Shown here piece after piece: positions 18,609 through 58,169 of a stretch of 64,000 bases of DNA (its first letter is position 1; each line of letters begins with the position of its first letter). The position numbers were made by a program, and so were the translations under genes. The notes beneath the pieces were generated by a model. It was not told where the DNA came from, searched no databases, and worked only from the letters and a program-made list of their open reading frames with translations. The DNA is from Desulfobacteraceae bacterium Eth-SRB1 (GTDB taxonomy: Bacteria > Desulfobacterota > Desulfobacteria > Desulfobacterales > ETH-SRB1). Where the stretch lies: NCBI GenBank assembly GCA_004193555.1, contig RPGP01000040.1, positions 501,127 through 565,126 on the forward strand, in the 5' to 3' direction.

Positions 18609-18618
18609 AGCCAAGCTT

Positions 18619-18676
18619 GATGAACTCGTAAAAAGTCGGATTTCTACCTTTTTGTCATTCCCGCGAAAGCGGGAAT
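18619..18676. repeat. family C half-element with REP-like hairpin
   Basis: GATGAACTCGTAAAAAGTC (18619-18637) matches the terminal arm of the 50883-51026 element. The short palindrome GTCATTCCCGCGAAAGCGGG (18654-18673) follows; it is also present inside the 30492-30646 element. The right arm is missing. The rest of the gap to larB holds TTAACACCTAACAC-type repeats. Confidence 0.7.
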
Positions 18677-30332: not shown

Positions 30333-30491
30333 AACCTCATCTCCATCTATGCTGGTGAACATTAATTTTTTTTAAAAAGAAACCTTCTTTTTGTCACGAG
30401 CTTGCTCAAATCACTTTATACACCAAGTTCCACTTCAATACAACAAAATCAAATTATCTTTAAAAAAATTATATGGTTATAGCGAAAAACC

Positions 30492-30646
30492 GTAACTTCT
30501 CAATAAATTCCGGCAATTTTGAAAGTTCGGTGTCATATTCACAAGTGTCATTCCCGCGAAAGCGGGAATCCATCGGTTTTACGGGTTTTCTGGATTCCCG
30601 TTTTCACGGGAATGACGTTTACTGCCAGAGGTTATTGAGAAGTTAC
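30492..30646. mobile_element. MITE-like element, family B copy 1, with perfect 8-bp target duplication
   Basis: Perfect 15-bp terminal inverted repeats GTAACTTCTCAATAA. A perfect 8-bp direct repeat GAAAAACC flanks it at 30484-30491 and 30647-30654. Inside is the REP-like hairpin TCATTCCCGCGAAAGCGGGA and its inverted partner ATTCCCGTTTTCACGGGAAT. It is non-coding. Confidence 0.88.
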
Positions 30647-30654
30647 GAAAAACC

Positions 30655-31141
30655 TCAGAATTTTTAAGTAGTACTCCCGCTATTCCACGATAAGCTATCA
30701 AATACTCGTCATCCACACTTAAACTGTACCGTCATGATACAATTTATTATGATCTTTTAAATACCCCATCCGCTTGCGGCGGGAAGCTTCATTCTATTCC
30801 TTCAATATGGAGGGTTAACCATTAAATGTTAAGAACATAAATCAGTAATATTTGATATTAACAGATCGTTTCTTGATTGTTATAATAGCTTAATATTGCA
30901 CTGTTTTTAATGAAAAGGCAAGAATTATATAATCCTGAGCGATATGGAGGGAGCGAACCTTCAAGTAGTTGAGCAGATGGCTGATATCCCTGCCGGAGTG
31001 TTCAGTATTTATCTAATTTGTAGGATTTTTTCCTGATGCATCCTTTTAATCGCAAGCCTTATTTTTTTTTGGATCAACCATATCAAAAAAGCCAAACATG
31101 ACTTTGCCATTAAAGATTGTAAATCTTTCTGAGATTACCGA
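30655..31141. other. intergenic stretch with no supported gene
   Basis: AT-rich sequence with many stops in all frames. No hairpin repeat, ORF or promoter that I can defend; probably debris of earlier insertions. Confidence 0.6.
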
Positions 31142-49617: not shown

Positions 49618-49695
49618 GATTCACCTTTATCTGTTTTATCAAGCTGTTAACACTTAACACTGTAACTTCTCAAAAAGTCACGAATTTAATTATAG

Positions 49696-49821
49696 ATGGC
49701 TAAGTAAAAAGTTTCATATACAAGGCGTAGTGATTTTTCAGGATCGAAGGCATACATATAGTATGTTGAGAGTCTGAAAAATCACTGCAACGCAGTAGAT
49801 GGGACTTTTTACGACGCCATC
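49696..49821. repeat. palindromic repeat, family C copy 2
   Basis: Left AGATGGCTAAGTAAAAAGTT and right (reversed) TGATGGCGTCGTAAAAAGTC continue as pairing arms through GTGATTTTTCAG on each side. The right end supplies the last codons and stop of the WbqC gene (MAS-stop). A GTAACTTCTCAAAAAGTC solo end precedes it at 49672. Confidence 0.65.
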
Positions 49822-50489
49822 AATATTTCAAGACTCTTTTCTCCATGATTATAAATCAAATCAATAACCGACATAAACGGCTCAAATGCGCCAAAGAGCT
49901 GATCGTAAACGGGATGTTCATACTCCTGAAAAATGACCTTTATGCCATTTTGGGTGTATTTCTCCATATCCATGTATCCCTTTCCACCGCCTCCCGCCAG
50001 ATATGTATCTGCATTAAAATGCCTTGCCAGGGCAATCAGCCTTTCATCCGGATCTTCAGGAAATTCTCCAAGCTCGGAGGCAACACGTATGGGTGTCGTA
50101 ATGCCTAACAATTCGGCAAGCCTCTTCACCACGTGAATATTCAATTGAGAAATATACTGCCAGTTCGATAAAAATATTTCTTCAAAAAATTTTTCAAGCA
50201 AAAACCAGTATTGGGCCTTTTTGTAATTTGAGATTATCGCTTGCCTATGACGGTGCTGCCATTTATCTTTGTTGTTAATCTCCACCTCGTTTATCAATTG
50301 AGGATATTTGTACAAAACCGGAACAGTCAGCCATTGCCGGCCATTTGCAGTCTTAATCCTGTTCCGGTTCTGCCATTCATTCTTCTTAAATTGAACATTA
50401 TCCAGCAAAACAAAGATATCAGCTCTGTTGATCTTATCGAAATAGCCCAGCCACGGTAAATACTGCGGTTGATGCACCGCTACGATCAT
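49809..50489 (-). CDS. WbqC-family protein
   Basis: 226 aa. MIVAVHQPQYLPWLGYFDKI, RADIFVLLDNVQFKKNEWQN, RNRIKTANGRQWLTVPV and GGGKGYMDMEKYTQNGI are WbqC signatures. The family is found in O-antigen clusters, where it is thought to modify amino sugars; the reaction is not settled. A 5' fragment of a second copy lies at 60625-60774. Its stop codon comes from a repeat element. Confidence 0.92.
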   Translation of the reverse strand: MIVAVHQPQYLPWLGYFDKINRADIFVLLDNVQFKKNEWQNRNRIKTANGRQWLTVPVLYKYPQLINEVEINNKDKWQHRHRQAIISNYKKAQYWFLLEKFFEEIFLSNWQYISQLNIHVVKRLAELLGITTPIRVASELGEFPEDPDERLIALARHFNADTYLAGGGGKGYMDMEKYTQNGIKVIFQEYEHPVYDQLFGAFEPFMSVIDLIYNHGEKSLEILMAS

Positions 50490-50838: not shown

Positions 50839-50882
50839 TGCCAGACCCTCCTTTCTGAATTGTTTACTTCACTAACAATTAT

Positions 50883-51026
50883 GATGAATTCGTAAAAAGT
50901 CGAAGAACTTGTCATTGCGAGCGAAGCGAAGCAATCTCCTGCAAGATAACCGCCTGTATTTATTAGATTGCTTCGTCGTTGTACTCCTTGCAATGACTTA
51001 GTGTATGACTCTTTTGCGAGTTCATC
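50883..51026. mobile_element. MITE-like element, family C copy 1, with 6-bp duplication
   Basis: Ends GATGAATTCGTAAAAAGTC and (reversed) GATGAACTCGCAAAAGAGTC; a 6-bp direct repeat AATTAT flanks it at 50877-50882 and 51027-51032. The interior is the hairpin pair GTCATTGCGAGCGAAGCGAA...AGATTGCTTCG...TTGCAATGAC, a repeat common in many bacteria. It lies between the GT4 gene and the small membrane protein. Confidence 0.75.
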
Positions 51027-57439: not shown

Positions 57440-57826
57440 GTAACACTTTAGATTTTTCAAAGAGACTTTTTTGACAGGATTAACAGGATGTTCAGGATTA
57501 AAATATCAAAACTCATCCTGTAAATCCTCATCAAAATCCCTTACTTTGCGTTTGATTTCAACTTTCCGTTCACCAAAATTAATAAAAAAACCATAACCCA
57601 TTCGATTGTAAACTCTGTATGTACAACCAATGATTTTCTCAGTCAATTCTCTGTGTTTCACTTATATGCCTTTCTCAGGATTATGACTTTATGATTTACT
57701 GGATAGCGCTAAAGGTTAGCGCTGTTGGACTTTTTACGACGCCATCAACCTTGTTTGTTCACTTGAAACAAAATCTTGTTTATCCTGTTATCCTGTCTGA
57801 TTTTTTTCAAATAGCTAAAGTGTTAC
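57440..57826. mobile_element. MITE-like element, family A, carrying a gene remnant
   Basis: Left end GTAACACTTTAGATTTTTCA and right end (reversed) GTAACACTTTAGCTATTTGA form terminal inverted repeats. The flanking direct repeat CATGAAAT/CATAAAAT (57432-57439, 57827-57834) matches 7 of 8. Next to the ends lies an inner inverted repeat (GACAGGATTAACAGGAT / ATCCTGTTATCCTGTC). Inside are a GxxExxY-type gene remnant and a family C arm (GACTTTTTACGACGCCATCA). Confidence 0.75.
57506..57661 (-). pseudogene. GxxExxY-family protein remnant with internal deletion
   Basis: VKHRELTEKIIGCTYRVYNR is the N-terminal part and FINFGERKVEIKRKVRDF the C-terminal part of a GxxExxY protein; the middle half, including most of the signature, is missing. 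It lies entirely within a MITE-like element. Confidence 0.65.
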
Positions 57827-57876
57827 CATAAAATTTAGTTGTGAAAACTACAGTTATTATTTCTGGATAATTCTGT

Positions 57877-58088
57877 GTAACTTCTCAAAAAACCCGAACA
57901 TGAGTTGTGCCTCAGGGTTGCGTGCAAACATTTCGTTATGGTTGTCTTACCACGAAGATCACGAAAGCCACGAAGAAATCCAATAAAAAACAGTAACTTC
58001 GTATTTCTTCGTGTACTTCGTGGTGAATAAACACTTGACGCCTGAGAATCAACCTGAAATTAACAACCTGGATTTATTGAGATGTTAC
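57877..58088. mobile_element. MITE-like element, family B copy 2, with perfect 8-bp target duplication
   Basis: Left GTAACTTCTCAAAAAA and right (reversed) GTAACATCTCAATAAATCC are the same termini as at 30492-30646. A perfect 8-bp direct repeat AATTCTGT flanks it at 57869-57876 and 58089-58096. The interior is a different hairpin, CCACGAAGATCACGAAAGCC / CTTCGTGTACTTCGTGG. It is non-coding. Confidence 0.88.
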
Positions 58089-58169
58089 AATTCTGTAAGG
58101 TAAACTTTACTTATAATCAGAAAAACTGTAAAGTCTATTTAACACATTCCATGTTATCGTGTCAAATGG

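Follow-up and report, generated by a model that had tools for sequence, protein, structure and literature searches.

Short IS66-type elements with varied REP-type hairpin cores in Desulfobacteraceae bacterium Eth-SRB1 and related genomes

Background

Insertion sequences of the IS66 family are characterized by ends that begin with GTAA and by 8-bp direct repeats. This agrees with passages of the papers describing ISDge4, a member of the ISBst12 group of the family with GTAAC..CTCA.CA ends, an 8-bp direct repeat and a single transposase gene (PMC12898284), and IS66 members of Paracoccus, for which 8-bp repeats are given (PMC3281130). Among short elements, BrickBuilt is described, in a passage of the paper that reports it, as housing a minisatellite, a repeat of another class (PMC4596501).

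The stretch of DNA analysed here (the window, 64,000 nucleotides of contig RPGP01000040.1) contains two elements, copy 1 and copy 2, which are short, lack genes and possess inverted ends and 8-bp duplications. Both are non-autonomous elements of the IS66 type (MITEs).

Elements of the window

Copy 1 is a 155-bp non-autonomous IS66-type element on the plus strand (30492..30646) that no ORF of at least 100 aa overlaps. Its left terminal inverted repeat (30492..30506, plus strand, GTAACTTCTCAATAA) matches the right one at 15/15 positions, the latter (30632..30646, minus strand) being its exact reverse complement, and the target duplication GAAAAACC is found on both sides (30484..30491 and 30647..30654, 8/8). 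The perfect 15-bp inverted ends and perfect 8-bp duplication of the preliminary description were thus borne out at 30484-30654. The core (30546..30617) was found to consist of two REP hairpins in inverted orientation (REPIN-like), with the REP TCATTCCCGCGAAAGCGGGAATCC at 30548-30571 and an inverted copy with two mismatches at 30592-30615. The strand folds with z = -8.8 relative to shuffles. The REP-like hairpin previously noted in the interior also stands, as an inverted REP pair.

An unoccupied paralogous target of copy 1 was identified in the same genome (G000:C1, near 308.9 kb), where ...TTATATGGTTATAGCGAAAACCTGCAAAATTTT is uninterrupted by the element. Aligned to the joined flanks of copy 1, this site agrees well over the left side and the target, and on the right over only about a dozen bases; the left flank of copy 1 is part of another dispersed repeat. 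Both flanks (30358-30488 and 30821-30955) were observed to be dispersed repeats with copies in the source genome and relatives. No orthologous unoccupied site was found among the relatives, the best of which (G002) has an alignment that stops at window position 30345, before the element begins.

Copy 2 (57877..58088, plus strand) is a 212-bp element with a CACGAAG hairpin core (fold z = -4.2), again with no ORF of at least 100 aa overlapping. Its left end (57877-57891, plus strand, GTAACTTCTCAAAAA) and right end (58074-58088, minus strand, GTAACATCTCAATAA) match each other at 13/15 positions, and the element is bracketed by the duplication AATTCTGT (57869..57876 and 58089..58096, 8/8). Of the earlier claim that copy 2 has the same ends as copy 1 around a CACGAAG-type hairpin, the hairpin was confirmed, and the ends proved imperfect (13/15).

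A solitary end (L012, GTAACTTCTCAAAAA), absent from the preliminary description, lies at 49662..49676 on the plus strand, with no partner within 900 bp. The target TTAACACT precedes three ends, namely those of L006 (G000:C29:95371) and L017 (G000:C40:683635) and the window end that follows 49647-49661, and a similar target without an element is present in the window near 2527 (minus strand). L006 and L017 have in common a right end shortened by 3 nt (GTAACTCAA), yet their cores differ. The shared target could mean a hot spot, or else a single old insertion with a core that has since changed. A second inverted-repeat family was also observed in the window, consisting of CGTAAAAAGTC with TTTTTACGANNNCATCA nearby (18618-18637, 49803-49822, 50882-50901 and 57728-57747).

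Ends and target duplications in the genome and its relatives

Within the window, the number of ends proves nothing because it does not exceed that of shuffled sequence: five end matches were found with up to three mismatches, and 14 of 100 shuffles reached five. Evidence beyond chance comes from the complete set of 52 contigs (3.34 Mb), in which the motif GTAACWTCTCAA occurs 24 times versus two for the reversed pattern. The 15-mer end with three mismatches was not above its control genome-wide (350 versus 437), and near-exact ends alone were therefore used. The motif was present in 24 of the 38 genomes searched, with 97 exact copies and none for the control in G037, where many belong to elements of 65-70 bp that have almost no core. 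The ends of relatives are a sample, as part of the motif places was used.

Pairing of ends by script in the source genome and relatives gave 79 elements of 41-314 bp and left 90 ends unpaired, through location at a contig end, decay of the partner or a partner more than 700 bp away. Of the 24 ends of the source genome, 15 belong to nine elements, three of which have a variant as their second end, and nine are unpaired. Duplications of 7-8/8 occur in six of the nine elements, of which two (L006 and L017) were accepted with the aid of the duplication.

Statistics on duplications were confined to 74 pairs formed by their ends only, with L006, L017, L190, L196 and L250 excluded as having been accepted partly by duplication. 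Among the 74, duplications of 7-8/8 were found in 52 (33 at 8/8), while five pairs match at 6 positions and 17 at no more than 5, the last group including L021 and L023 of the source genome. The chance level for 7-8/8, from mismatched pairings, is 0.34%. Across the source genome and its relatives, it is thus not the case that all copies lack duplications (52/74) or that all have one and the same core, either of which had been named beforehand as speaking against a mobile shell.

Transposases between matching ends

The only PF03050 protein of the source genome belongs to a three-gene IS66 element (tnpA-tnpB-tnpC) at G000:C40, with ends GTAAGCGCTCAATAAACC. As a parent of the MITEs this resident element was rejected, its ends differing at positions 5-7 and its flanks having no duplication (1/8), and a parent was therefore sought in relatives. 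Using the ends, PF03050 proteins were identified in a 2648-bp transposon of G006 (C463:640-3287), which has 25-bp perfect ends and no duplication, and in a 1689-bp element of G017 (C93) with an 8/8 duplication and a single 530-aa frame. The right end of copy 1 together with its adjoining bases (CCTCTGGCA) is identical to the end of the 2648-bp transposon. PF03050 scores for the two proteins (48.7 and 62.4 bits) were over the cut-off, with the match covering only positions 147-281, and for NCBIfam NF033517 the scores, 107.6 and 110.3, fall below the cut-off of 180, which makes the transposase a putative member of IS66 in the strict sense.

When 96 genomes of the order were searched with the G017 transposase as protein query, 20 yielded matches, weak ones included, and neither the source genome nor G037 yielded any. 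The assembly of G037 consists of approximately 380 contigs, so a collapsed transposase copy is possible there. Near-full-length homologues of at least 55% identity were all (5/5) flanked by GTAACWTCTCAA ends, and 8/8 duplications were present in four; one of the five is the query itself. Two homologues at 31-33% identity showed no such ends, and partial copies had one end or none.

A wider scan yielded 80 named loci, mainly of Desulfobacterota and other Proteobacteria, with some from Acidobacteria, Spirochaetes, Planctomycetes and archaea. The 62 loci examined comprise 60 of these (20 partial or duplicate loci being dropped) and two of 226 plasmid records, all located by protein and independently of the ends. 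A bracketing inverted pair was found in 41 of the 62, with both ends matching GTAACTTCTCAA at 10/12 or better in 40 and at 12/12 in 25. In the 36 loci at which a duplication could be tested, 15 had one of 8/8 and one of 7/8, with 20 lacking one of 7-8/8. At least five of the 62 (L329, L332, L339, L344 and L381) are elements already counted above, and the two surveys are not independent. When 146 MITE ends were compared with 12 transposon ends, the majority bases agreed at 20 of the 22 outermost positions; agreement over the initial 12 of one end results from selection, and that over the remainder does not. The search for an IS66-like transposase with matching ends, suggested by the preliminary description, was thus successful in relatives only, where PF03050 proteins are enclosed by the same ends and 8-bp duplications accompany several of them. 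Another single-gene element of the IS66 type, with 8/8 duplications and GTAACCATTCAGC / GTAACTATTCAGC ends, was observed in G037 (L139:196-1913) and G026 (L140).

DruA in longer transposons

DruA is also known from the Druantia defence system, to whose components it belongs. Its domain, DUF4338, is described as GNAT-like acetyltransferase in a passage of PMC10853773, and passages of a paper on Xylella give Druantia as absent there. A homologue was observed inside the ends, as second gene, in 13 of 15 bracketed transposons of 2.1-2.8 kb, in none of 25 shorter ones, and not in the single longer element (41 in total). The loci are L086:698-1588 (G006), L331, L339, L340, L343, L345, L346, L353, L354, L355, L358, L360, L363 and L368, with ends similar to GTAACTTCTCAA. 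In the two cases scanned with Pfam, the protein was assigned to DruA. Only two of 11 testable forms with DruA had an 8/8 duplication. The occurrence of DruA as second gene of longer transposons provides a lead on the origin of DruA.

Hairpin cores

The 57 elements of at least 100 bp fall into 13 core clusters. With shuffles of single bases and each cluster represented by one element, folding at z < -3 was found for eight of the 13 representatives versus none of 26 flanking controls; the five that miss this level include L063, a deletion form that represents the largest cluster. The REP of copy 1 is found at 41 places in the genome, four of them inside three MITEs, and is therefore itself a dispersed repeat. 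The cores are mostly REP-type hairpins, several of which are dispersed repeats independently of the MITEs.

Fourteen Y1_Tnp matches, 13 of them over the cut-off, were identified. At one of these 14 loci (L267) the REP of copy 1 lies approximately 1.1 kb away; no cognate RAYT was established for this REP. A RAYT-like (Y1) gene of 180 aa at G000:C40:679801-680343 (L266:1270-1812) has GGAGCAAGGCATC / GCCGACATGGTCGGC repeats on both sides, the repeat that also forms the cores of L003, L015 and L017.

Turnover of the cores

It had been proposed from copies 1 and 2 that a mobile shell swaps its core. A swap between these two was rejected, their likeness being limited to 12-17 bp at each end, and the comparison gives no evidence of swapping because any two derivatives of this transposon would share such ends; the two may be separate derivatives. 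What stood of the proposal is that ends are fixed and interiors varied, with approximately four cases of unrelated cores in the same shell.

These cases come from the 1596 pairs that can be formed of elements of at least 100 bp, in which 131 pairs share a shell with 30 bp or more at each end. Collinearity through at least 90% was found in 108 of the 131, and shell and core therefore usually move together. Of the remainder, 21 have residual cores of at least 25 bp on both sides (17 unrelated, four related) and two are too short for a judgement. The 17 pairs, with cores no more alike than shuffles, reduce to L098/L219 versus L231, copy 1 (L010) versus L253 of G014, L079 versus the 270-bp class of G037, and the central 32-47 bp of L090. 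Within the shell of L253 lies an inverted-repeat element of approximately 131 bp bracketed by a 10-bp direct repeat (AGTCCGGTGT), and the core change seen here is, from this arrangement, a nested insertion. At a locus shared with the nearest relative, G001 (L023/L073), a 106-bp hairpin core is present in G001 and missing in the source genome, with neither copy having a target duplication. Core turnover is hence real and uncommon, and is explained by nested insertion and deletion, which suffice without machinery for swapping.

Probable origin and movement of the elements

The MITEs very probably derive from the single-gene, ISBst12-like branch of IS66 and are moved in trans, with cores that came to differ through separate births, nested insertion and deletion. 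The comparison establishes the ends, the duplications, the unoccupied paralogous target and the presence of a transposase clade between the same ends in relatives. Transposition itself, we infer, would involve a DDE transposase supplied in trans that recognises approximately 22 bp at each end (similar to GTAACTTCTCAAWAAGTYCGGG), the element being inserted with duplication of 8 bp of target. A transposase of this clade would have moved the copies of the source genome, and may have come from outside or since been lost, because none was detected in that genome. Differences between cores would have arisen partly when miniature elements were born separately and partly in situ, through nested insertion of other small elements and through deletion, after which complete units of shell and core could have spread. 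Points against this reading are the lack of a transposase match in the source genome and in G037, the 90 unpaired ends, the 17 of 74 pairs with poor duplications, the 20 of 36 transposons lacking one of 7-8/8, the missing ends at the homologues of 31-33% identity, the short right-hand match of the unoccupied target, and the partial Pfam and below-cut-off NCBIfam matches.

If cores had differed through separate births only, transposon ends having bracketed different stretches with REP hairpins and no core having changed within an existing shell, then copies 1 and 2 should be alike at their ends alone, as they are, and the collinearity of 108 of the 131 shell-sharing pairs through at least 90% would also be expected. 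Against this are the 17 same-shell pairs (approximately four cases) with unrelated cores, the L023/L073 pair that differs by 106 bp at the same locus, and the element nested inside L253, and this explanation is considered unlikely. A dedicated exchange, by recombination or template switching between palindromes, could instead swap hairpins within a shell, and the replacement in L098/L219 versus L231 does retain the tips (CAGTCATTGC, GAAAAATCA) of what seems to be an older hairpin. As the cases are few and are accounted for by nested insertion and deletion, such an exchange is highly improbable.

Movement of the entire element by REP/RAYT (HUH) transposition, with the 8-bp duplications incidental, would fit the presence of RAYT-like genes and the REP-like nature of the cores. 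It scarcely deserves credence, however, given that duplications are far above chance, that the conserved ends are common to a DDE transposon clade, and that elements of 41-81 bp with little or no core still keep these ends. Under the preferred reading of derivation from IS66 with movement in trans, a partnership of two transposases can be imagined, in which the DDE-moved IS66-type shell repeatedly takes in REP hairpins dispersed by RAYT and carries REP families to new genomes. This is a speculative extension that is probably wrong; if true, it would place two unrelated transposition systems in one mobile unit. Hairpins may even be favoured as cargo by bringing the ends together or by slowing replication.

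Comparison with known systems

Among the closest described systems is the ISBst12 group, with a similar form of end, an 8-bp direct repeat and, as in the transposons of the partner clade, a single transposase gene. The lack of TnpA and TnpB that is a trait of this group was found in the 1689-bp element, and the two-gene forms carry DruA instead. Differences lie in the ends, which are GTAACTTCTCAAWAA here, in the transposase (approximately 525 aa versus 449) and in the elements themselves, which are without genes. In the same comparison, the 471-aa proteins of G026, one of which has GTAACTATTCAGC ends and 8/8 duplications, were only 24% identical. Classical IS66, as represented by the resident copy, shares GTAA and CTCAATAA of its ends (GTAAGCGCTCAATAAACC) with the elements, but possesses three genes, differs at positions 5-7 and shows no duplication (1/8).

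From the passages of the respective papers, MITEPsy1/2 (PMC3189936) and BrickBuilt (PMC4596501) are similar to the present elements in being short and gene-less with inverted ends; they differ in that the ends here come from an IS66-type clade and the cores are several REP-type hairpins. The core of copy 1, an inverted REP pair whose REP is also dispersed elsewhere, resembles a REPIN as described in PMC3116915, the difference being that this pair lies inside the shell of a DDE transposon with target duplications. No such element is described in the passages of the IS66 and MITE/REP literature considered, which does not imply that it is unreported. The novelty is in the varied REP-type cores, and the element is otherwise of a known kind, a MITE of a probable IS66 (ISBst12-like) branch.

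A family of short repeats in genomes related to Desulfobacterales is hereby tied to a single transposase clade, since DNA and protein searches led independently to the same ends, and the sharing of these ends makes mobilisation in trans directly testable. Set beside the systems above, the elements indicate that REP hairpins and the ends of a DDE transposon can combine in one unit.
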